NCBI GenBank assembly: GCA_026014875.1 | Contig: JAOZHO010000037.1 | Span: 186,001-250,000, forward strand | Direction: 5' to 3' | Length of the DNA stretch: 64,000 nt | DNA from: Candidatus Bathyarchaeota archaeon | GTDB taxonomy: Archaea; Thermoproteota; Bathyarchaeia; TCS64 | Notes under the pieces: model-generated | Told to the model about the DNA's origin: nothing | Databases searched by the model: none | Seen by the model: only the letters and a program-made list of their open reading frames with translations | Shown here: piece by piece, positions 34,410-51,374 of the stretch | Layout of the letters: each line of letters starts with the position of its first letter | Numbering within the stretch: position 1 is the first letter of the stretch | Translations under genes and position numbers: made by a program

Positions 34410-35627
34410 ATGGTTGATGCCGATAAGTTCTATTCGGAGCTGGGGAAGACGTTTGAGCCCGGGATAATTACTCAGGTGGTCCTCGCCGCGATGGATTCGG
34501 CGAAGCAGGGAAAGAAAATCATCGGGTTGACGGGTGGCATGTACGATCCCCCGTCCCTGCCTGGAGAGGAGGTGAGCAGGGTCCTGGCTGAGGCCTCGGA
34601 GGAGGATTGGAGGGAGATGCTCCAGTACGGGGGCACCGTGGGCTCTTTGGAGCTGAGGGAGGAGCTCTCCAAGTTCATGGCGGGTCACGGGATCGAGGCG
34701 GACCCCAACGGGGAGATCATCGTCACCACGGGGTCTCAGCAGGCGCTGGACTTGGTGGCGAGGGTCTTCCTGGATCCGGGGGATGTTGTTATCGTCGGTG
34801 CCCCTACGTATCTCTCTGCGTTGGGGGCGTTCAGGCAGTTCAACCCGGAGATCAGGTCGGTGGAGATCGATGAGGGGGGGATGAACGTGGAGGCCCTGGA
34901 GGCGGAGCTCGGAAGGATCGAGGCGGAGGGGAAGTGGGCCAAGCTCCTCTATCTGGTGCCGTCGTTCCAGAATCCGACGAGCACGATGCTCACGGTGGAG
35001 AGGAGGAAGAGGATCGTGGAGCTCGCGGAGGAGCACGACTTCATCATCCTGGAGGACAACCCCTACGGCTACATCTGTTTCGAGGGGGAAATGCCTACCC
35101 CGGTGATGGGGCTGGACGAGGGGGGGAGGACGATGTATACCAGCACCTTCAGCAAGATCGTGTCCCCGGGTATGAGGATCGGTTGGCTGGTGGCCCCCAG
35201 GGAGTTCATCTCCAAGATGGTGGAGGCGAAGAGCAACGTGAGCATCTGCAACGACGGGATCACCCAGTATGTGGCGGCTCAGCTGTTCAAGAGGGGGGAG
35301 GTGGAGAGGCAGATCCCCAAGGTTACCGAGGTGTACAGGCGTAAGAGGGATCTGATGCTGGAGGCGATGAAGACGAGCTTCCCTGTGGAGGCGGAGTGGA
35401 ACGATCCGGAGGGGGGGTTGTTCCTCTGGGTGAAGCTGCCGGAGCACGTGAACACCACGGAGATACTGATGGAGGCGGTGGAGAACGGCGTCGCCTTTAT
35501 CCCGGGGTCCAACTTCTTCGCCGAGCCGGTGCACAACTATATTCGGCTTAACTATAGCTTCCCGTCTGAGGCGGATATCGTTGAGGGTATCCAGATTCTG
35601 GGCGGGCTGCTGAAGAAGGCGGTCTAG
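34410..35627 (+). CDS. PLP-dependent aminotransferase, class I/II (LysN/2-aminoadipate type)
   Basis: 405 aa, fold-type I aminotransferase of the MocR/LysN-like subgroup. The PLP lysine is in STFSKIVSPGMRIGW; the phosphate/ring contacts are TTGSQQALDLVARVF, VPSFQNPTST and EDNPYGYI. Members use 2-oxoglutarate and aromatic, branched or aminoadipate donors; specificity cannot be read. It ends in a T-rich tract that should terminate transcription. It lacks the N-terminal HTH of MocR regulators. Confidence 0.9.
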   Translation: MVDADKFYSELGKTFEPGIITQVVLAAMDSAKQGKKIIGLTGGMYDPPSLPGEEVSRVLAEASEEDWREMLQYGGTVGSLELREELSKFMAGHGIEADPNGEIIVTTGSQQALDLVARVFLDPGDVVIVGAPTYLSALGAFRQFNPEIRSVEIDEGGMNVEALEAELGRIEAEGKWAKLLYLVPSFQNPTSTMLTVERRKRIVELAEEHDFIILEDNPYGYICFEGEMPTPVMGLDEGGRTMYTSTFSKIVSPGMRIGWLVAPREFISKMVEAKSNVSICNDGITQYVAAQLFKRGEVERQIPKVTEVYRRKRDLMLEAMKTSFPVEAEWNDPEGGLFLWVKLPEHVNTTEILMEAVENGVAFIPGSNFFAEPVHNYIRLNYSFPSEADIVEGIQILGGLLKKAV

Positions 35628-40944: not shown

Positions 40945-40963
40945 AGCGGGTGTTTAGCCCGCT
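40945..40963 (-). terminator. hairpin terminator of S-layer-like gene 1
   Basis: On the minus strand AGCGGG-CTAAACA-CCCGCT forms a 6-bp stem that includes the TAA stop codon, followed by TTCCCCCCTTTTTTATTTTATT. Nearly the same element ends the second S-layer-like gene. Confidence 0.65.
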
Positions 40964-43900
40964 ATCTTTTTGCTTATCTGCATTAGAGATACTATCGCTG
41001 CGAGAGCTGCTATCAACGAGGCGCCTATCGCGCCGTAAACCAGGCTCTCTAGTCCTTTTGCAGCGTCGCCCGCACCCTCGGCCGCAGTCGCGGCGTCGGC
41101 AGCGGCGTCAGCTGCTTCTTGAGCTGCATCCAAGGCACTGTTCGATGCGTCCGCGATGTCGCCCATGGAGTCCTCGAGATCGCTAAAGGAGTCCTCCAGA
41201 TCCGCGACCGCGTCACTGGCGGCGTTGCCCGCGTCTGTTGCGGCGGCGATCTCGTCGGATAGGCCGTCGATGTCGTCCGCGAAGTCAGCGGATAGGCTGG
41301 CGATGTCGTCCGCAAAGTCAGCGGATAGGGCGTCCATGTCGTCCGCAAAGTCATCGCTCAGGCCAGCCATATCTTCCGCGAGACCGGATAGATCAGATCT
41401 GACGTCCTCTAGCAGGACGTCAACCTGGGCGGCTGTTGAAGGACCGACCGCGAATGTACCGTTCATCAGTTCATCGTCGGCTGTGTCGTAGAAGAAGTAT
41501 GTCCAGGTGCCTAGGGGCGCGTCGCTTGCGAGATCCATTGGGTTCTCGTTGGCAGTCTGTCTATAGTAGGGAACTGTGTACAGCAAGTCTGGTTGGATCC
41601 ACATATCCGCAACGAGCAGATCGGTAATCCACCATAGAGTATCGTCGGGACTGTAGATCTCGATGTAAGAATTGGGAAGATCGAAGTCGTTGCTGATGTC
41701 GAATTTGACAGTATTACCTCTATCGAAGAGCGCCTTAGTGGGGTTCACTTCGACGCGAGCGGCAACAACGCTGAAAGGCAGCTGGACGAGAAGTCCTTCG
41801 CTTCCAGTTATGTTGATGGTATATTCTCCGATGCTTAGTTCATCGAGGACTTCCCACCAGCCTGTGAAGTTACCGTCATCAGTCTCAACAGGGACACCAG
41901 GATCTCCGTTCATTCGGACATCCATGGGCCAATCATCTGTTGAGTTGTAAATCACCAGTTCTACAAGATCGTCTACATCTGCGAAGTTGTTACCTGAGAA
42001 GGTTATATTGTATTCATTCGGTGCCATAGCTGGATCAGCTGAAGCATAGGATGATTCTGTAACTGTAAAGTGTACTGTTAGCTCATTTTCAACTGAGTCG
42101 ATGACCATTACTTCGTAGGTTCCAGGATCAATATTTGGGATATAGAAGATATCCGAAATAGCTTCTCCTGTTACGCCATCGGAACCAACGCCATCCGTAT
42201 AGTCCTCGTATAGCTCGTCTCCGAATGTCAGATTGTAGAGGCCATTTTCAAAGCCAATTCCGGTAATAGCCATTTCAGTTCCAGCCGCGCCTGAGATTGG
42301 ATTCACGATCAATGCGATCAGACCGACCTTAAAGGCGTCATCTGCGTCGATGAAATACTCGTCAACGGCAGTTACAGTGTATGTAATGAATCCTACAGCA
42401 GGGGCCACGAACGTAGCCTCAAAGTTACCATTTGCATCTGTCTCAGCAGTAACTAAATCTGAAGTTGGGGTAGAGTCCAGTGTTACATAGACCTCGGTTC
42501 CGGCAATCTGTGTAAAGTTGGTTCCTGTTACTGTGATAACTGCGCCAGGAGAACCATAGGTCGGGTCAACCTCGATCTCTGGTTCACCATCAACCTCAAA
42601 GTCAGCCTTTGCAGTCTTCGCTCCATCATCGACTGTGATATCATAGTCATCCATGGCAACGTCAGGTATTACGAACTCGGCTTCAAATTCTCCTTCCGTT
42701 ACTTCAATCTCGTCTACATCACCATCAACCGGAAGCATATCTGTACCATCAAGCTTCACACTCGATAAGAAACCGTCTATGAAACCTCTACCGGTTATGG
42801 TCACGATAAATCCAGTTGGACCCTGATCGATGTCTGTAGTTATGACGGCTCCGATTGTGAAAGAACTCATGTTCCAGAAGTCTCCGCTACCGACACCGGA
42901 CACTGAGTGTCCGGTCTCGGCTAGATCAGGGATGTCAAAGGTGCTCGACCAGGACCCATCGTCACCGCTTGTAACGGTAGCGTCAGGACTGGTTAGATTG
43001 TAGATTATGCCTTCAACTTTTACATCATCGACATAATATGTTCCTACGACGCCCCAGCCTACCTGTGGACCGACAGCTGATAGGACCCATGAGTCAGAAC
43101 CACCCGATGCTGTATCGATGTCTGACACAGCAGTACCCCAATCAGCAGAGGTGCCGCTGAATGATGATCCATCAGCTTTGTTTCCAAACCACCAAACAGT
43201 GCCTGTCGCTATTGATGCAATCTGCCATGCGGTTGTTGGGTTAGTAGTTGTTGGTATGGTTATTTCAACGTGAGCGCGATTGTTGCTACCTGAATCATAG
43301 GGGTTAACGCAATCAGGATGGGCGAAAAGCAGCGCAATTTCAGGAGAAAGTCCAGTAGCTACCGACTTAGTATAGTAAATCGATAGACCAGTCAAGGACT
43401 CATCAAAGGCAACCAATGTCGGTGCATTAGAAGTCCTATTCATGACTAATGCAGCCGCATTGGAACCATCGACTCCGACAAGCTTCACAACGTCTTCAGT
43501 TCCTCCGATGACTGGGTCTGTGGCCCAATCTGCCGTAGAATCTCCATATCGTTCATCGAGTCTAACGGGAGGACTCCCGAAGTATATCGCGATATCGTCA
43601 TCGTCCAGGTATCCAGTGCCGTCCACCGTTAGCTCTTCGTCAACTAAACCTGAGGAAGCGGAGAGATCCACTTCAGGCAGTACGACTACTCGCACATTGG
43701 CTGTGAGGGATGTTTCCACGTCTTTGACCCAGATCCAGTGTTCTCCAGCGAAAGTATCGGGCACATCCAGCGAGACCGTGAAGGTTCCGCCTGCCGCACC
43801 TTGAGTGTTGTTCATGAGTCCTGCCGAAGTGACGAAGTCCCAATAGACGTTGATTGTTGCACCTGAGGTTACACCCCAGCCTTCAACTGTGATAGTATCA

Positions 43901-44037
43901 CCGACTAGGTACCGAGTGCCGGCAGTTGGAGCGGCTGAGTCAAGTGTAAGTGCGCTTGCTGGCATGATGGGTATCATGCTGATGAGGAATGTTGCGATTA
44001 CGATTATTGATATTGCTCTCTTACTTAGTTTATTCAT
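40954..44037 (-). CDS. S-layer-like secreted multi-Ig-domain protein 1
   Basis: 1027 aa. Signal peptide (SIIVIATFLISMIPIMPASA), then serial Ig/IPT-like beta-sandwich domains (units begin like DPTYGSPGAVITVTGTNFTQIAGTEVYVTL), a heptad-rich coiled coil (DDFADDMDALSADFADDIASL repeats) and an Ala-rich helix ending in a membrane anchor with SLMQISKKIAG. Many N-glycosylation sequons. Relative to its paralogue it has about 190 extra residues (roughly 155-345) that look like a jelly-roll/laminin-G-type domain inserted in an Ig domain. The central DNA (41.6-43.9 kb) is more A/T-rich than the C-terminal part. It is probably a cell-surface lattice or stalk protein. Confidence 0.82.
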   Translation of the reverse strand: MNKLSKRAISIIVIATFLISMIPIMPASALTLDSAAPTAGTRYLVGDTITVEGWGVTSGATINVYWDFVTSAGLMNNTQGAAGGTFTVSLDVPDTFAGEHWIWVKDVETSLTANVRVVVLPEVDLSASSGLVDEELTVDGTGYLDDDDIAIYFGSPPVRLDERYGDSTADWATDPVIGGTEDVVKLVGVDGSNAAALVMNRTSNAPTLVAFDESLTGLSIYYTKSVATGLSPEIALLFAHPDCVNPYDSGSNNRAHVEITIPTTTNPTTAWQIASIATGTVWWFGNKADGSSFSGTSADWGTAVSDIDTASGGSDSWVLSAVGPQVGWGVVGTYYVDDVKVEGIIYNLTSPDATVTSGDDGSWSSTFDIPDLAETGHSVSGVGSGDFWNMSSFTIGAVITTDIDQGPTGFIVTITGRGFIDGFLSSVKLDGTDMLPVDGDVDEIEVTEGEFEAEFVIPDVAMDDYDITVDDGAKTAKADFEVDGEPEIEVDPTYGSPGAVITVTGTNFTQIAGTEVYVTLDSTPTSDLVTAETDANGNFEATFVAPAVGFITYTVTAVDEYFIDADDAFKVGLIALIVNPISGAAGTEMAITGIGFENGLYNLTFGDELYEDYTDGVGSDGVTGEAISDIFYIPNIDPGTYEVMVIDSVENELTVHFTVTESSYASADPAMAPNEYNITFSGNNFADVDDLVELVIYNSTDDWPMDVRMNGDPGVPVETDDGNFTGWWEVLDELSIGEYTINITGSEGLLVQLPFSVVAARVEVNPTKALFDRGNTVKFDISNDFDLPNSYIEIYSPDDTLWWITDLLVADMWIQPDLLYTVPYYRQTANENPMDLASDAPLGTWTYFFYDTADDELMNGTFAVGPSTAAQVDVLLEDVRSDLSGLAEDMAGLSDDFADDMDALSADFADDIASLSADFADDIDGLSDEIAAATDAGNAASDAVADLEDSFSDLEDSMGDIADASNSALDAAQEAADAAADAATAAEGAGDAAKGLESLVYGAIGASLIAALAAIVSLMQISKKIAG

Positions 44038-44142
44038 TTTTTTTCTTTCCTTTTTTCACTCGGTGGATATGAATGATTAAAATGGAATAAAACTCCACTT
44101 TATATCCATCATCTTCACCGATCGCATCCTTAAGTTTTATAT

Positions 44143-44412
44143 GTATATTTAAATCTATGTATACATGAATAGTGTCGTTGTATACATCAACATATTTTAT
44201 CTACATATTACGTTGATTTGTGGACAACACATATTATTTGGTATACATACTTAACTAAAATGTATTCAGAATAACATATTATATTACAAATCTTATTAAT
44301 TGTATATGGATATGCAAATAAGTATACAAATAATATTAGTATGTATACAAATATTGGCATCGGAACCTACTACATGAAACGGTATACAAAACCAAGATAG
44401 TTATATACTAAT
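44143..44412. promoter_or_regulatory. AT-rich divergent regulatory region with six GTATACA sites
   Basis: GTATACA occurs at 44159, 44180, 44241, 44322, 44343 and 44382 (start positions), with partial variants (TGTATATGG, TGTATTCAG) between. GTATAC is self-complementary, so each is a short symmetric site. The region separates S-layer-like gene 1 (TATA GGATATAAAG near 44100, minus strand) from the RHH gene (TATA AGTTATATACT near 44400). It holds no gene. The clustering suggests cooperative binding by the RHH protein. Confidence 0.75.
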
Positions 44413-44432
44413 ATCAGAATAACAGTAAACGA

Positions 44433-44624
44433 ATGGGAATGAGTGCTACCAAACAGGAAAAACGACGCCCAAGAGACACGCGCGTCGTCTCCGGAAGAGT
44501 CAGCCCCCAGATGTTCGAAGCCGTAATAAAAATAGTGGATTCAGGCAACTACGTCGACATGACAGACTATCTCAGAGACATGATCCGGAAAGACCTCAAA
44601 GAAAGAAAAGTAATCATACAATAA
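44433..44624 (+). CDS. ribbon-helix-helix (CopG-like) transcriptional regulator
   Basis: 63 aa. After a basic arm, TRVVSGRVSPQMFEAVIKIVDSGNYVDMTDYLRDMIRKDLKER is a full RHH domain: one beta strand and two helices, acting as a dimer. ATG 44433 is about 30 bases from TATA (TTATATACT) and so nearly leaderless; ATG 44439 is also possible. It lies between two S-layer-like genes, and the GTATACA cluster lies on one side of it with a further copy in front of S-layer-like gene 2, so it is the likely regulator of both. Confidence 0.82.
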   Translation: MGMSATKQEKRRPRDTRVVSGRVSPQMFEAVIKIVDSGNYVDMTDYLRDMIRKDLKERKVIIQ

Positions 44625-44977
44625 CGCGTAAAAACGTCACAAAATCAAAGAATAAAACAATCAACACCATCTCTAAAACGACCTAAACTAATAGACCCTT
44701 TCTCCTACATTATTCTACAAAAAATCAAATATTTAGAGATAAATAAATGAGATTAACCCACATTATCATAACCCCTCACCCATCCCGAGTTCAAACTCCT
44801 CTACCATAAAAACGGGATTAAAGTTCTAACAAAAAAACTAACGGAGTCAACATAAACAACATCCTTCGAGAGGAAACATAGCCAAAGCCCCCAATAAATC
44901 GACAAACAAAGTCACCCAAACGAACACCCTAATATCCACTAGTTGAAGAAAAAATAAAAAAGGGGGGGAGCGGGGGT
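44625..44977. other. AT-rich gene-free stretch
   Basis: About 350 bases downstream of the RHH gene with no ORF or strong repeat. A GAGTTCAAACTC near 44790 resembles a tRNA T-loop but no cloverleaf can be built. The right end joins the terminator of S-layer-like gene 2. Confidence 0.5.
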
Positions 44978-44987
44978 TTAGCCCGCT
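44969..44987 (-). terminator. hairpin terminator of S-layer-like gene 2
   Basis: On the minus strand AGCGGG-loop-CCCGCT overlaps the TAA stop and is followed by CCCCCCCTTTTTTATTTTTTC. It is the same design as at 40.95 kb and part of the duplicated 3' block. Confidence 0.65.
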
Positions 44988-47560
44988 ATCTTTTTGCTTA
45001 TCTGCATCAGTGAAACGATTGCCGCAAGGGCCGCTATCAACGAGGCGCCTATCGCACCGTAAACCAGACTCGTCAGCCCTTTTGCAGCGTCGCCCGCACC
45101 CTCAGCCGCAGTCGCGGCGTCGGCAGCGGCGTCAGCTGCTTCTTGAGCTGCATCCAAGGCACTGTTCGATGCGTCCGCAATGTCGCCCATAGAGTCCTCC
45201 AGATCACTCAAGGAGTCATCCAGATCCGCGACCGCGTCACCGGCGGCATTACCCGCGGCTGTCGCAGCGGCGATGTCGTCAGCGAGGTCGCCGACGATCT
45301 CATCCTTCAGGCCGTCGACGTCGGATGCCACGTCCCCGATCTCCGAGGATAAGGCGTCGATGTCGTCCTCCAGGTCTGTTGTTACGCCTGCGATGTCGAC
45401 AGCGAGGTCAGCGATGCTTCCCTCGACGTCGGATAGCCGGGCGTCGACCTGGGCGGCGGTTGTGGGCAGTATCTCTATTGTGCCGTTCTTGATGACGTCG
45501 TCATCGACATCGTAGAGAGTCCAGACCCATGTTCCTGTGTCGCCGTCGCTCGGGATCATCAACGGATTAAGCGAGCCGTCCTGTACCTGGTTGGGTATCC
45601 TGACGACCTGCCATCCACTGATCTCCTCCCACTCAATTCCGGCGAATGTGCTGATGAAGATCTGTTCCTCGCTTGGATCAACGATCTCCAGATACGAGTT
45701 TACCTTTTCGAAAGTCGCCTTGATGGTGAAGGTTATCGTGTCACCGAGACTGTAGGACGCCTTGTTGGGATTGATCTCCACTTCCTCCTCGACTACTGTA
45801 AAGTCGAACTCGGCGTAGAGGTCGTTGGCATCTGTAACGTTCATGGTGTACGTGTTCCCCAGGAGCATTGTATCAGGTACGACCCAGTAGCCTGTGAAGT
45901 TACCGTCGGCACTCGACGTCGACGCGACACCAAAGGTCTCGTTAACGACAATAGCCGTGGTCATTCCCCACGTGGCATTGTATGCGTAGAAAGTCAGAGC
46001 TGTGGCGGCTACCTCAGTGAAGTGCTCACCGTAGATGCTCATGTTGTATCCAACGGCGATATCTGAGGGAGTTCCGGCCAGGCTCGTGGTTGCTGTAACT
46101 GTGAATGTTCTGGATAGTGTGTTCTCATCCTCGTCGACGACGGTCACGGTGTACGTGCCCGGATCAACGGTGGGAACGACGAAGTCATCGGAGATCTGTT
46201 CGGAGGTTACAGCCTGATTGTCTAGAAGCAGATCGTCTTCGAAGGTCATGTTATACAAGCCGTTGGTGAAGCCTATGCCTGTCAAACTGACTTCTGTACC
46301 GGAGGGTCCAGATTCCGGGTTGATGAGCATGGCTATGAGCCCGATCTTGAAGGTGTCTGTCGCATTTACTGTATACTCGTCCACGGCGTCTACATCGTGG
46401 GTCTTGAACTCGGTTGCAGGAGCGGTGATTGTCACGGTGAACGTACCGTCGGCTAGTGTATCAACGGTTTCGGTAGTTGTGTTCAGCGTGATCGTGACCT
46501 CTGTGCCAGCGATCTGAGTGAAGTTCGCACCAGTCACAGTGATTCCTGCGCCTGGAGAGCCGTAAGTGGGATCAACCTCTATGCTTGCTGTACCGTCGAT
46601 AGTGAAGTTGTCCTCAGCCCAGTTGGTTCCATCGGTAACCTGTACACGCCAGTCGCCTACGCCCCACGAGGGAGCGACGATCTCTCCTGTGAATTCGCCG
46701 TCTGCATTTATGTCGGGGTCATCGACCCAGGTTAGATTTCCATCAGATCCATAAGCACCTGCTGGACCGTCCCATGTGACGTTCCCAACGGTCAATGTTT
46801 GATCAGCCTCGAAGCCTCTGCCAACTATCTCGATGACGAAGCCCTCGGGGCCCTCGTCCTCGGTTAGCGTGATAGATGCACCGATAGTGAACGCAGTTGT
46901 GACGTTGAAGCTGTCACCGGCTGCGGCGCTGCTCACGTTGAAGAAGTAGTCATCGTATGTGAGGACCGAAGCTGGAATATCCACCTCGATCTCGAACGAA
47001 CCGTACACGTCCGTTTCCTCGTCGTTATCCACAACGAGGGCTACGCTTGTATCCATATTTCCTGCAGTTATGTTGAAGATCGAGACGTTGAATCCGGCCT
47101 CAGCATCGAAACCATAACCGGTAAGGGTAACGGTGTCTCCGGGCAGGCCGCTCGTAACATCGACCTCCAGCGTAGGATCTACGTTTACGTCTAGGGAGCC
47201 GTTGTTCAGGCCAGTCGCCACGTCAACGACCCAGATGTAGTGGTCACCGACTTCCGTTTCAGGCACATCGATGTTTACTTCGTATGAGCCGTCCGGGTCA
47301 CCCGTCGTGGTGTTCAGCAGCCAGGCGCTCGCGCCTGTGGCATAGTCCCAATAGACCTTAACCTCTGACCCTGATGTGACCTGCCCCGCTGCCCCCGTCA
47401 AGGTGATCGTGTCACCGACTTCATAGGGACCAGCCGGAGCGGGCGTGGGTTGATCGAGAGCGCTGACTGAGACGAATGGCACTATGAATGATAGAGTAAG
47501 TATAGCAATTACGATTATTGATAGCATTCCTTTAGAGTTTCTTTTCATTTTTCTTTTCAC
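44978..47560 (-). CDS. S-layer-like secreted multi-Ig-domain protein 2
   Basis: 860 aa, paralogue of the 1027-aa protein. Signal peptide (MLSIIVIAILTLSFIVPFVSVSA), repeated Ig/IPT-like domains (DPTYGSPGAGITVTGANFTQIAGTEV again), a coiled coil (DDIDALSSEIGDVASDVDGL) and the same Ala-rich anchor. Its last about 90 codons and the terminator are nearly identical at DNA level to gene 1, while the middle domains have diverged. It lacks the jelly-roll insertion and its G+C is higher. It probably co-assembles with, or replaces, protein 1 in the cell envelope. Confidence 0.82.
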   Translation of the reverse strand: MKRKMKRNSKGMLSIIVIAILTLSFIVPFVSVSALDQPTPAPAGPYEVGDTITLTGAAGQVTSGSEVKVYWDYATGASAWLLNTTTGDPDGSYEVNIDVPETEVGDHYIWVVDVATGLNNGSLDVNVDPTLEVDVTSGLPGDTVTLTGYGFDAEAGFNVSIFNITAGNMDTSVALVVDNDEETDVYGSFEIEVDIPASVLTYDDYFFNVSSAAAGDSFNVTTAFTIGASITLTEDEGPEGFVIEIVGRGFEADQTLTVGNVTWDGPAGAYGSDGNLTWVDDPDINADGEFTGEIVAPSWGVGDWRVQVTDGTNWAEDNFTIDGTASIEVDPTYGSPGAGITVTGANFTQIAGTEVTITLNTTTETVDTLADGTFTVTITAPATEFKTHDVDAVDEYTVNATDTFKIGLIAMLINPESGPSGTEVSLTGIGFTNGLYNMTFEDDLLLDNQAVTSEQISDDFVVPTVDPGTYTVTVVDEDENTLSRTFTVTATTSLAGTPSDIAVGYNMSIYGEHFTEVAATALTFYAYNATWGMTTAIVVNETFGVASTSSADGNFTGYWVVPDTMLLGNTYTMNVTDANDLYAEFDFTVVEEEVEINPNKASYSLGDTITFTIKATFEKVNSYLEIVDPSEEQIFISTFAGIEWEEISGWQVVRIPNQVQDGSLNPLMIPSDGDTGTWVWTLYDVDDDVIKNGTIEILPTTAAQVDARLSDVEGSIADLAVDIAGVTTDLEDDIDALSSEIGDVASDVDGLKDEIVGDLADDIAAATAAGNAAGDAVADLDDSLSDLEDSMGDIADASNSALDAAQEAADAAADAATAAEGAGDAAKGLTSLVYGAIGASLIAALAAIVSLMQISKKIAG

Positions 47561-47912
47561 ACTCTTTGTTTATCGTTCGAGCCCGGCAAAAGACACGCTC
47601 AGAGAGCCACCTCTAACCGACTCGACGATTGGTTCAAAAAACCATAAGCCGATTACTTAAGTCTATGTCTACAGGGACCACACCCGTGTATACAAACTGC
47701 GCAAAAAAACCGTGAAAACATGAAAGAAAAAGGGCGCCCGCATAGAAGTAGGTGCTTTTCACCCTCGAAAAACAGTATTAGAACCATAAGGAACGCCTCC
47801 GACGGAGAGCCCCCGTAGAAGAGGAGCGTCTAACCAGATTTACTTGAAGGTAAAGGAGTTAAAATCAAAGATTCACATTCATAAAATTAACAAATACGGG
47901 TAAAACCCCGAT
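47561..47912. promoter_or_regulatory. upstream region of S-layer-like gene 2 with one GTATACA site
   Basis: About 350 bases without a gene. CCGTGTATACAAACTG at about 47684-47699 holds one GTATACA (47688-47694), the same motif as the cluster at 44.2 kb, about 130 bases upstream of the gene start. No other structure stands out. Confidence 0.5.
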
Positions 47913-48515
47913 TTATTTTCCGTTATACGTGCGGAAAACCCTCTCGAAGCTCAGCTTCGCCAGCCCCCTGATGAACTCCCCCTCCCTTCTCTCGTAGCCC
48001 AGCGATCCCATCACACCAACGACATAGCTCACCAGGAGCTCCGTCACCTCCTCGGAGAGGGAGAAGGAGGCGAGCCTCAGCTCCGCCTTCATCTCGTCGT
48101 GCCTCATATCGACCTCGTCGAGGTTCCAGGAGATCTTCAGGGCTCCCCCGATTACCTCGATGGCATTCTCGCCGAAGAGGGTTCGGAGATACTCCCCGTA
48201 CCATTTCCCGGTCTCGGCCCAGTCCGAGAGAGTCGCCTCCTTGTCTGAGGCGAAGAGGCTTTTCACCACGGTGTCGAGGCTCTGGCGTGGGACTTGGACT
48301 GCCCCCGCTGCGAGTTGGACCCGGAGGATCCGATACGATTCGATGGCCTCGTCGAGGGGCACGCCGTTGTCCTCGGCCTTGAGGGCTTCCTCGAGGTTCT
48401 CCGCAGAGTAAGCCGTCAGGGATAGGCCCTTCCGGGAGGCCGCTCGCTGGAGCCTGTCGACGAGCTCCTCAGGCAGAGATATGAGTTTAAAATCTGATTT
48501 GGTTCCGGGGATCAT
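47913..48515 (-). CDS. RHH-like regulator with unknown C-terminal domain (paralogue B)
   Basis: 200 aa from ATG 48515; the tracked upstream extension is a shadow of the next gene. N-terminal ribbon-helix-helix-like segment (SDFKLISLPEELVDRLQRAASRKGLSLTAYS) and a C-terminal domain of about 130 residues with SDWAETGKWYGEYLRTLFG. The same ETGKWYGxY box occurs in the adjacent protein, so the two are diverged tandem copies. GGTGA, which includes the upstream stop, serves as ribosome site; translation is coupled. The C-terminal domain is not recognised and may bind a ligand. Confidence 0.7.
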   Translation of the reverse strand: MIPGTKSDFKLISLPEELVDRLQRAASRKGLSLTAYSAENLEEALKAEDNGVPLDEAIESYRILRVQLAAGAVQVPRQSLDTVVKSLFASDKEATLSDWAETGKWYGEYLRTLFGENAIEVIGGALKISWNLDEVDMRHDEMKAELRLASFSLSEEVTELLVSYVVGVMGSLGYERREGEFIRGLAKLSFERVFRTYNGK

Positions 48516-48520
48516 CGCGT

Positions 48521-49096
48521 TCACCGGGGCCCCGTGAATGTGAGCCGGATCATCCCCTTGCCGTTCTCGGTTTCGACGTGCTCCCAGCCGAAGGTCTCCA
48601 GGACCCCGCGGATGAAGAGTCCGTGCATCTCGGTGAACCCGTCGGTGTAGAGCTCCCCGACGCAGGAGACGACGAGGCGCCCCCCGTTCTGCTTCTCGAT
48701 GCTGGTGACGGGGTTCCCCAGGGAGAGGAGCTCCATCGCCTCCCTGAAGAATTCGATAGGGTCGCCCCCCTTGTCCGCAAAGTACCTCCCATACCACTTG
48801 CCCGTCTCGAGCCAGATCTCCCCGAGCTTCTTCCCGGCCTTGTCGTGGGCGAGCCCCACCACCTCGTAGAGGAGCTTCTCGATGGTGAACGTGAAGCCCA
48901 TCCCCTTGGCCTTCTCCATCTTCTCCCAGTTCTCGATGACGTAGTTGAGGTTGAGGCCCATCTCGTCGGCGCGGAGCGCCTGCTGGAGGATCTCGTTCAG
49001 CGTGCCGTAGACCGTGGAGCCCCGCCTCTTGGCGATCTCGACGATCTTGTTGGCTATGTCTTCGTCGGCGGCGAGCATCTTTCTCCTAGACGACAT
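48521..49096 (-). CDS. RHH-like regulator with unknown C-terminal domain (paralogue A)
   Basis: 191 aa. RHH-like N-terminus (RRKMLAADEDIANKIVEIAKRRGSTVYGTLNEILQQAL) and a C-terminal domain with WLETGKWYGRYF then an alpha/beta stretch (LVVSCVGELYTDGFTEMHGLFIRGVL). GAGGTGAC six bases before ATG is a strong ribosome site; a TATA-like CTTTATAATGAG lies about 140 bases upstream. First gene of a two-gene operon with its paralogue, six bases apart. It probably forms heterodimers with it, by analogy to other RHH pairs. Function is unknown. Confidence 0.72.
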   Translation of the reverse strand: MSSRRKMLAADEDIANKIVEIAKRRGSTVYGTLNEILQQALRADEMGLNLNYVIENWEKMEKAKGMGFTFTIEKLLYEVVGLAHDKAGKKLGEIWLETGKWYGRYFADKGGDPIEFFREAMELLSLGNPVTSIEKQNGGRLVVSCVGELYTDGFTEMHGLFIRGVLETFGWEHVETENGKGMIRLTFTGPR

Positions 49097-49296: not shown

Positions 49297-51270
49297 TTAC
49301 TCCCTTCTCCTGAGGTAAAAGACGATCCCTCCACCCGCGAGCCCCACGACCCCGATGATCCCATATAGGAAGGGGGGCTTGAGGAAAGGCGCAGCCCTCC
49401 CCATCAGCGCACCGGGGATTCGGGTGAGGGTGGTAGAGAGGCTGGGCTCGACCACCGTGAGAGAGAGGGGGGCGCTCTCCGATCCGGCGTAAAGGAAGCC
49501 GTCTCCGATTACCCTCGCATTGATGGTGTACTCGCCCTTGGTGGGTGGCTCAAAAGATCCCGTGAAGCATCCGAGAGAGTCGGTTTTTGCGATGATCTTC
49601 TCAGACTCGTTTCCATGGATGACGGAGATCTCGACGGTGACATCCGGCTTCTCCGGGTCCAGGGATCCGGTGACTGCCACGGTCTTACCCGACTCGACGG
49701 TCTCCAGATCGAGGCTGCAGGCGATGGATGTTTGAAGGCTTGAGACGGTTAGGTTTACGGGTTCGGTGTAGGCGGCATGGTACGCCTCGCTCCCGTTGAA
49801 ACTGGCTTGGAGGGTCCAGTTCCCCGTGGCCGTAGGCTTGAAGGGGTAATTGAAGCGCCCGTCGGGATCCGTTGCCAATGTCATGTTGATGAGTGTATCT
49901 CCGTTGATGATCGAGACGTTGATGGACTCCCCGCCTGGGTTCAGCCTCCCCCTGATCTCGGCCTCCTCCCCGGCCGTCAGCTCCTCCTCGCTGAAGCCGA
50001 TCTCGAGAGTCGATGTTCCCATCGCGTAGAAGCTTCCCAGGGTCTCGCCGCTGTTTCCCATGGCGTCCTCCGCCTCGATGATGTACTCGACGGTGGTTCC
50101 GGGGTTTACCGGGGGAAATTTGACCCTGAGGGTTCCGTTCCCGGTCGTGGAGGGGTTTAGCGTTCGAAGGGTCTCCCCTCCGTCGGTTGAGTAGCTGAAT
50201 TCTAGACCGGTGACCTCCGTCTGTTCGTTCACCTCGAATTCCAGGGGCGTCGGGTTATGGGCTTCGACGATCTCCGGGGGATCGAGGACGGTGACGTTGG
50301 GGGGGTCGAAGTCGGTCTGGACGATGAACTCGATGCTACCGATCCCGTACTCGGCGATGAGGGCGAGATGGTAGAGGATCTCTCCCTCTGCCTGGGCGGT
50401 GTAGTCGATGACCATGTCCTCGCCGCTCCTTTCGCAGCTCGCCATGGCCCCCACGTGTCTGAAGCCCGTCTGGTCGAGGTTGAAGCCGCCGTAGGAGCCC
50501 TTCAGCTCGCCCCTGAGCCCGGGCTCCCATGCCACGGGGATACCCCGGATCCTCTCCCCTATGCCTGCCTCGGGGTTGGCCATGGCGTAGAGCCTCGCCT
50601 CGTACATGTCGAGGGTGTCCGGGACGTCGATCTGGACTCTTATCCGGGGGGCGGTCGTCGTGAACTCGTAGGACCAGAATGTGGTGGGCTGGGGCTCCTC
50701 GTCTATCTTTCCCTCCATCCATCTCTCGTGCCACTCGTTCGTCTGGATGCTCTCGAGGACCATGAGGGTGCCGGGTTCCGCGGCGAGGCTCTCGAGGACG
50801 TCGTTCCTGACCGTGATGTAGTATAGCCCGGAGGAGTCGGGGGTGAAGAACCTGCCCCAGGGGTCGTTGCCCACCTGCTCCAGGAGGCCCGCGGCCTCGG
50901 TGTGGGTGGAGAGGAGGGTGGAGGAGTAGGCGTCGTACTCGTAGACGTAGAGGTCGTAGTCGGTGGCGTGATTCTCGGGGTCCGCCCATTCACCGGAGAG
51001 GTAGACGTGGTACGTGTGACCTTTCTCGAGCCTGTAAGAGTATGTGTGGGCCTCGCCGACGGGGATGAAGCCCTCCTCGATGACCACCGCCGGGACGGGC
51101 TCCCGGACCACCGTGATGCCTCCGAAGGGGTCTACGTTCTCGTCGCCCCAAGCCCCACGTATCGAGGATCCAAGGAGACTTGTGAGGACTAGGGCTGTGA
51201 CCGCGATTTTCAGCAGCGGAGCCCTTCTGAAGACTAGTAGGATGTGTGGGGCTCTTGACCAGTTCTCCAT
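49297..51270 (-). CDS. secreted, membrane-anchored multi-beta-domain surface protein
   Basis: About 657 aa from ATG 51270; the tracked start (51336) lies upstream of TATA CCTTTATCGATACC. Signal peptide (LLKIAVTALVLTSLLGSSI) then a prepeptidase-like beta domain (YSYRLEKGHTYHVYLSGEWADPENHATDYDLYVYEY), Ig-like domains (EFSYSTDGGETLRTL, LTAGEEAEIRGRLNPGGESINVSI, VTGSLDPEKPDVTVEISV) and a C-terminal membrane helix with RRR. Many NXS/T sequons. The C-terminal anchor with short basic tail resembles archaeal surface adhesins. Its binding partner is unknown. Confidence 0.72.
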   Translation of the reverse strand: MENWSRAPHILLVFRRAPLLKIAVTALVLTSLLGSSIRGAWGDENVDPFGGITVVREPVPAVVIEEGFIPVGEAHTYSYRLEKGHTYHVYLSGEWADPENHATDYDLYVYEYDAYSSTLLSTHTEAAGLLEQVGNDPWGRFFTPDSSGLYYITVRNDVLESLAAEPGTLMVLESIQTNEWHERWMEGKIDEEPQPTTFWSYEFTTTAPRIRVQIDVPDTLDMYEARLYAMANPEAGIGERIRGIPVAWEPGLRGELKGSYGGFNLDQTGFRHVGAMASCERSGEDMVIDYTAQAEGEILYHLALIAEYGIGSIEFIVQTDFDPPNVTVLDPPEIVEAHNPTPLEFEVNEQTEVTGLEFSYSTDGGETLRTLNPSTTGNGTLRVKFPPVNPGTTVEYIIEAEDAMGNSGETLGSFYAMGTSTLEIGFSEEELTAGEEAEIRGRLNPGGESINVSIINGDTLINMTLATDPDGRFNYPFKPTATGNWTLQASFNGSEAYHAAYTEPVNLTVSSLQTSIACSLDLETVESGKTVAVTGSLDPEKPDVTVEISVIHGNESEKIIAKTDSLGCFTGSFEPPTKGEYTINARVIGDGFLYAGSESAPLSLTVVEPSLSTTLTRIPGALMGRAAPFLKPPFLYGIIGVVGLAGGGIVFYLRRRE

Positions 51271-51374
51271 TTCTCGAGCGGAAAGATGTGACACAGGTAT
51301 CGATAAAGGGATTATGAACTCGTGATCTTTGTCCATAATCCACGTTCTCGCCCAGGTGACGAGGGGCTTCCAGG

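Follow-up and report, generated by a model that had tools for sequence, protein, structure and literature searches.

Which protein reads the GTATACA sites that lie before two S-layer-like genes of Candidatus Bathyarchaeota archaeon (Thermoproteota; Bathyarchaeia; assembly GCA_026014875.1), and what do these sites control? We analyzed a window of 64,000 nucleotides (contig JAOZHO010000037.1, positions 186,001–250,000; all coordinates below are those of the window), in which S-layer-like gene 1 (40954..44037, minus strand) and S-layer-like gene 2 (44978..47548, minus strand) flank the gene of a 63-aa protein resembling ribbon-helix-helix (RHH) regulators (44433..44624, plus strand), which diverges from S-layer gene 1. 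A first-pass annotation had proposed that GTATACA links both S-layer genes to the 63-aa protein. Sequence comparison and structural models lead us to a different answer, to which we give odds of roughly three in four (about 0.77): the sites, in their 8-bp form TGTATACA, would be operators of the S-layer promoters, read by a sensor-type regulator, protein A (48521..49096, minus strand), most probably acting with its paralogue B.

GTATACA occurs 13 times in the window, both strands counted, against an expectation of 1.6, and 100 shuffles gave at most 5. Between S-layer gene 1 and the 63-aa RHH gene, six GTATAC sites fall within 230 bp, where the first-pass annotation had placed them (44159, 44180, 44241, 44322, 44343, and 44382). 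This intergenic stretch has 24% GC compared with 58.8% for the window, and the enrichment also exceeds chance when the stretch is shuffled on itself (GTATAC mean 0.4, maximum 3, vs 6 observed). The operator unit is an 8-bp palindrome, TGTATACA, present in exact and degenerate copies, of which the degenerate ones occupy most of the gaps. A site and lattice scan placed these copies on a 20.3-bp lattice that spans 44158..44409 (no strand assigned), with strong sites at 44158, 44179, 44240, 44261, 44321, 44342, and 44381 and weak slots at 44198, 44219, 44301, and 44402; the best lattice score was 6.0 compared with 4.59 ± 0.14 in shuffles, and 0 of 300 shuffles reached 6.0. As first proposed, such a palindrome suits RHH dimers, and the register of ∼21 bp suggests cooperative binding along one DNA face. 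A tandem duplication as the source of the array was considered and rejected, with Tandem Repeats Finder returning one short 1.9-copy repeat and the spacers being dissimilar.

Upstream of S-layer gene 2, the single site originally described is present (GTATAC at 47688), but it is not alone, as a second site lies at 47666. The S-layer 2 operator is thus a two-site element, TGTATACA-N13-TGTAGACA, with a distal site TGTATACA (47687..47694, minus strand) and, 21 bp from it, a proximal site TGTAGACA (47666..47673, minus strand; TGTCTACA at 47666). The predicted TATA box, CTTAAGTA (47654..47661, minus strand), taken from the promoter consensus, starts 12 nt past the start of the proximal site. The same 12-nt register is found at S-layer gene 1, where two perfect TGTATACA copies 21 bp apart (44158..44186, minus strand) adjoin the predicted TATA box TTTAAATA (44146..44153, minus strand). 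Two further GTATACA copies, at 46370 within the S-layer 2 coding region and at 35134, are both without a 21-bp partner.

Across the 2.5-Mb genome, TGTATACA-N13-TGTATACA with ≤ 2 mismatches occurs in four places, all of them in the S-layer 1/2 locus, where ∼0.17 would be expected at genome GC and ∼5 were the whole genome as AT-rich as the array. The idea of a shared regulatory site that ties the two S-layer genes together is borne out, the 21-bp pair being found in the genome only at S-layers 1 and 2. TGTATACA alone has eight copies in the genome, four of these in the locus; the remaining ones (contigs C1, C28, C38, and C45) have no 21-bp partner at ≤ 2 mismatches and were taken as chance occurrences.

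The same operator stands at a fixed distance before the S-layer TATA box in ∼12 further Bathyarchaeia genomes. Alignment of 15 promoters gave the consensus tGTATACA-N13-TGTagACATA-NN-YTTAARTA, in which site columns are near 2 bits and the 13-bp spacer carries near zero information. The distal site is invariant across these promoters save its first base, and the distance from the beginning of the proximal site to the TATA box is a constant 12 nt, save a one-base shift in G010. Exact matches to GTATACA-N13-TGTADACATA lie just 3′ of B or before an S-layer gene in nine genomes, and where unrelated genes part the S-layer gene from B (L105, L109, and L110), the operator stays with the S-layer gene. 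Most operators have two sites, with three in G021 and G023 (20-bp spacing) and four to five in G046.

Beyond these genomes, in further families and classes of the phylum, the S-layer genes that adjoin A or B are preceded by TGTNNACA pairs. The two sites of a pair lie 20 bp or three helical turns (30 or 31 bp) apart, and their placement with respect to the TATA box is almost unchanged. Outside the standard gene order we applied a fixed rule, a TGTNNACA pair spaced 20, 21, 30, or 31 bp upstream of an open reading frame (ORF), which 12 of 16 A/B-adjacent S-layer promoters passed vs 2 of 263 other ORFs of the same loci. Shuffles predict 0.06 passing promoters in all. The P value of the comparison, 4e-16, is descriptive, since several of the loci had already shown the pattern when the rule was drawn up. 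Of the four promoters that fail the rule, two nevertheless have sites that it excludes, at 33-bp spacing in L176 and as two copies of TGTATACG in L181. Both exceptions among the control ORFs appear to be of S-layer type themselves: L188:4226 has an S-layer-like beginning and directly follows A-B, and a ∼1,100-aa ORF beside A in L195 is, we infer, an S-layer-type gene too. Our confidence that the sites constitute an S-layer operator is high.

The gene pair next to these operators offers a candidate reader. A and B (B, 47913..48515, minus strand; ATG at 48513–48515, 5 nt past the A stop) are tandem paralogues of ∼190–200 aa, 27% identical, located just upstream of S-layer gene 2. The pair was found in ∼39 of 101 relatives, adjoining an S-layer gene in many, and the recurrent gene order is RadB-like, CarS-like, A, B, operator, S-layer. 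Within the closest family, the S-layer homologue and A-B tend to occur together (both, 15; one without the other, 1 and 3; neither, 8; P = 6e-4). A-type proteins are present in 111 of 300 sampled genomes of the phylum, mostly in one or two copies, and S-layer-like genes adjoin them in other families and classes as well.

The 63-aa RHH protein, which the first-pass annotation had cast as the regulator, shows no such linkage. Regulation of both S-layer genes and of its own gene through the array would fit its position, since its gene lies beside the array, its motif and weak matches are RHH-like, and the gene has a predicted TATA box (44401–44408) that the last array slot overlaps. However, the same site pairs stand before S-layer genes in relatives in which no 63-aa homologue was found, so that only the operators are conserved in most of them, and A-B is conserved there. 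Weak homologues were detected in 4 of 100 relatives, the contexts checked being without a site array (in L002, the neighbor is of RadA type), and none were found in viral contigs; it was on these grounds rejected as a conserved regulator. In the sister genome G001, contigs end within the S-layer gene, so that absence of S-layer 1 and the 63-aa gene from this genome is not proven and the gene could be present there. The predicted strand of the 63-aa protein, TRVVSGRV, is also unlike the conserved RKMLAA strand of A that covaries with the sites (see below). We therefore regard control by the 63-aa protein as unlikely, and the first-pass annotation probably chose the wrong protein.

Structure prediction gave a two-domain model for A (pLDDT, the predicted local distance difference test, 83.8). 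Residues 55–191 match YslB (Z 9.3), Bet3-Trs33 (Z 8.6), and the PoxR sensor (Z 8.0) in VIA searches, and Foldseek relates the C-terminal domain to H-NOX (E = 1.6e-3), indicating a predicted V4R/TRAPP/H-NOX ligand-binding fold with weak sequence similarity. At the N-terminus, helices 12–25 and 29–45 follow a conserved RRKMLAA segment, which is not a strand in the monomer model. When the first 57 residues were modeled on their own and aligned to the PDB with VIA, the top matches were nearly all RHH proteins (PutA, Z 5.1; CopG, 5.0; MatP, 5.0; Arc, 4.9; with AmrZ also among them), consistent with a predicted RHH of ∼45 aa made up of a strand and two helices. Profile searches gave faint signals of antitoxin-type RHH, with 1 of 30 A relatives matching Antitox_RHH (E = 0.087) and the B N-terminus matching RelB/VapB models below cut-off (E = 0.007 to 0.02). 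A PF01402 search of the genome returned two genes, neither of them A, B, or the 63-aa RHH gene, and A-type proteins appear to fall outside the curated families searched. No His is conserved in 30 A sequences, so the proximal haem-ligating histidine of H-NOX sensors was not found and A is not classed among them, and the C-terminal domain likewise has no conserved His/Cys ligands in these sequences.

The predicted DNA-reading strand of A changes together with the center of the operator. This strand reads RKMLAA, RKSFAA, or RKVLVA in some lineages and RKTFVA, RKTLVA, or RKTFAA in others, and AT-centered sites (GTATACA or TGTATAC) are present in 18 of 18 promoters whose A carries RK[M/S/V] and in 0 of 11 with RKT, although the promoters compared come from related lineages and were grouped once the strands had been inspected, so that a Fisher P overstates the evidence. 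The change is visible within a single family, f8, where L187 and L188 combine RKMLAA with AT-centered sites and L165, L185, L186, L189, L190, and L192 combine an RKT strand with GT, GC, AC, CT, or TT centers; RKMLAA recurs with AT centers in f38, which belongs to a different class. A switch of strand and site center within one family suggests that A itself reads the site. Another DNA-binding protein could instead read the site, with A-B tied to the S-layer gene in some other way, for example through cell division or envelope assembly, as the tubulin-family and Vps4-like ATPase genes among the A-B neighbors in some Bathyarchaeia and the single A copies away from S-layer genes might suggest. This is hard to reconcile with agreement between the predicted RHH strand and the site center in 29 of 29 promoters and with an 8-bp palindrome that fits an RHH dimer, and we consider it improbable.

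Several observations, besides the relatedness of the lineages just mentioned, count against A as the operator's reader. For the 57-aa RHH part, individual Foldseek matches have E-values near 1, so that its assignment leans on the consistency of the hit list, and A matches no Pfam or NCBIfam family above cut-off. A-B is also found without an adjoining S-layer gene, single A copies occur in genomes with no S-layer gene nearby, and the region upstream of A yielded no operator pair. Finally, the S-layer promoters of L179 and L199, which adjoin A-B in other families, have no recognizable site. Weighing these points with the conservation, folds, and covariation, we have good confidence in A as the reader.

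We propose that A is a one-component regulator in which the 8-bp palindrome TGTNNACA is read by a dimer of N-terminal RHH domains and the C-terminal V4R/TRAPP/H-NOX-like domain joins neighboring dimers and/or senses a ligand; we infer binding, and the formation of a heteromer with B, from the computed patterns above. Two dimers 21 bp apart (30–31 bp in other lineages) would lie on one DNA face directly upstream of the B recognition element (BRE) and TATA box, where they would most likely recruit or stabilize TBP/TFB and thereby activate transcription. The exact TATA register fits such a contact with TBP/TFB. The end of the operator overlaps the BRE position, which would allow repression by BRE occlusion as an alternative. 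S-layer genes are generally highly expressed, and because of this and the apparently poor BRE here, activation is preferred, with moderate confidence in the sign of regulation.

The extended array is found at S-layer 1 only, with a two-site operator at S-layer 2. It keeps the standard TATA register at its S-layer 1 end, while the opposite end abuts the promoter of the 63-aa RHH gene. The overlap of the last slot with the TATA box of that gene makes it likely that the two promoters are coupled, and filling of the array, which reaches this divergent promoter from S-layer 1 (itself in tandem with S-layer 2), should affect both. A variant of the first-pass idea, compatible with our favored explanation and with A-B as the main factor, is that the 63-aa protein may compete or combine with A-B on the array, forming a two-input switch between S-layers 1 and 2. 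The divergent arrangement, with one end in standard register and the other at the 63-aa RHH promoter, and the restriction of the extended array to S-layer 1 speak for such a switch; a long array may, however, just be a stronger form of the multi-site operators found in G021, G023, and G046. We view this switch as possible but doubtful, and confidence in any role of the 63-aa protein is low.

Evenly spaced short palindromes and RHH proteins are also features of partition systems such as ParR, omega, and SegB, and the array might accordingly be a centromere-like or nucleoid-organizing site bound by an RHH protein. Most copies elsewhere, however, consist of just two sites placed in a constant 12-nt register relative to an S-layer TATA box, and no ParA-like gene was noted beside the array, leaving this explanation highly improbable. 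Nor did we find backing for the phase-variation or swap device suggested initially. No invertible element was seen, the intergenic region has a single short 1.9-copy repeat, the array spacers differ in sequence, and no recombinase was found among nearby ORFs. The sole sign of recombination is a 3′ anchor segment: the final ∼300 bp of S-layer 1 (40954..41256, minus strand) are 91% identical in DNA to segment 44978–45280 of S-layer 2, most other parts being far more diverged, which suggests a duplicated or shared segment, or recent gene conversion.

Among known regulators, A resembles NikR in its modeled organization, in which RHH dimers are carried on a C-terminal ligand-binding, tetramerizing domain in a one-component protein. 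The operator of NikR, too, is split into two half-sites separated by about two helical turns. NikR differs in its ACT-like nickel domain with His/Cys ligands, whereas the C-terminus of A is V4R/TRAPP/H-NOX-like and has no conserved His/Cys, and the system described here has two tandem paralogues, an archaeal S-layer target, and a spacing of 21 or 30–31 bp. A would thus work like NikR without belonging to that family. Arc, CopG, PutA, AmrZ, and MatP share the predicted fold of the A N-terminus, but have different operators, organisms, and effector domains.

The RHH regulators CdrS and CdrL of haloarchaea offer a second comparison. CdrS consists of a single RHH_1 domain (55 aa); CdrL bears a zinc ribbon and has one reproducible genomic target, cdrS-ftsZ2, beside its own locus (PMC7439475). 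Common to both systems are an archaeal RHH protein (predicted in the case of A), an adjacent target (proposed for A), and a link to cell surface or division genes; CdrS and CdrL have no V4R-like domain, however, whereas A and B are ∼190–200 aa long with a second domain and would not be members of the CdrS group. V4R domains are known in fusion with transcription-regulation domains, and Bet3-type proteins form homo- or heterodimers (PMC2253512). The predicted fold of the A C-terminus matches this group of V4R, TRAPP-Bet3, H-NOX, and XylR-PoxR sensor domains, but sequence similarity is weak, and neither the RHH fusion nor the S-layer association was found in the literature searched. That literature (titles and abstracts, most subscription papers lying outside the search) also described neither the present S-layer operator nor an RHH-V4R S-layer regulator and named no dedicated S-layer regulator.

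In most archaea, the S-layer is the only cell wall (PMC6805947). Our analysis supplies a candidate S-layer regulator family with an operator, a position relative to TATA, and a one-residue prediction of specificity. The observation is more significant than first claimed, in that it points to a conserved S-layer operator with a likely cognate regulator family. The predicted RHH-V4R architecture is a natural place to seek the signal that controls coat synthesis. As a tentative extension, to which we would give slightly less than even odds, A-B and TGTNNACA may represent an ancient, phylum-wide control of the S-layer in Thermoproteota by a ligand-sensing RHH-V4R heteromer, in some lineages with CetZ or Vps4/CdvC-type division genes that would couple the coat to division or to the state of the envelope. 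In the present genome, the additional S-layer gene and its long array would contribute a dose-sensitive choice between two surface proteins. The CetZ/Vps4-type neighbors in some lineages make the coat-division link testable.

The two target genes were assigned as S-layer-like from their signal peptide, immunoglobulin-like (Ig-like) domains, coiled coil, and C-terminal transmembrane segment, the ATG of gene 2 being set by comparing relatives. Their locus is bounded by A-B and an acyl-CoA synthetase-like gene here, in G006, and apparently in G001. A third S-layer-type gene (G000:C50:89662-91740) is more distant (28% identity) and lacks the operator pair at 21 bp. Between the CarS-like gene and A, 49297–51336 encodes a protein of 679 aa that has Ig-like domains and was found among the checked loci only in L105 (G006) and L106 (G005).

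Both S-layer mRNA leaders contain a predicted 5′ hairpin (S-layer 1, 44058..44124, minus strand, z −4.9; S-layer 2, 47572..47629, minus strand, z −2.7), and 10 of 11 other S-layer leaders have hairpins with z −2.7 to −6.2. The hairpin flanks are conserved (AATCGTC...GACGAT in several genomes) and the interior is variable; individual folds are clear, and in a MAFFT alignment that misaligns the stem interiors, 3 of 9 pairs showed two-sided change. The hairpin possibly acts as an mRNA stabilizer.

Other A-type loci vary in context. Lone A-type proteins away from S-layer genes occur in two single-contig genomes of 2–3 Mb (L173 and L174). An A-B pair also appears on a contig labeled as an Aquificota bacterium (L120), where the CarS-like neighbor suggests a binning error. 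In one Bathyarchaeia family (L161, L162, and L163), two genes downstream of A-B resemble ESCRT-III/CdvB on visual inspection, with no Pfam match for those tested, and in L161 and L162 A-B is also followed by a Vps4/CdvC-like ATPase (MIT + AAA). A tubulin/FtsZ-family gene directly follows B at L101:2164-3204 (E = 3.9e-9), and a CetZ gene lies upstream of A-B in divergent orientation at L163:3344-4423 (E = 3.2e-38).

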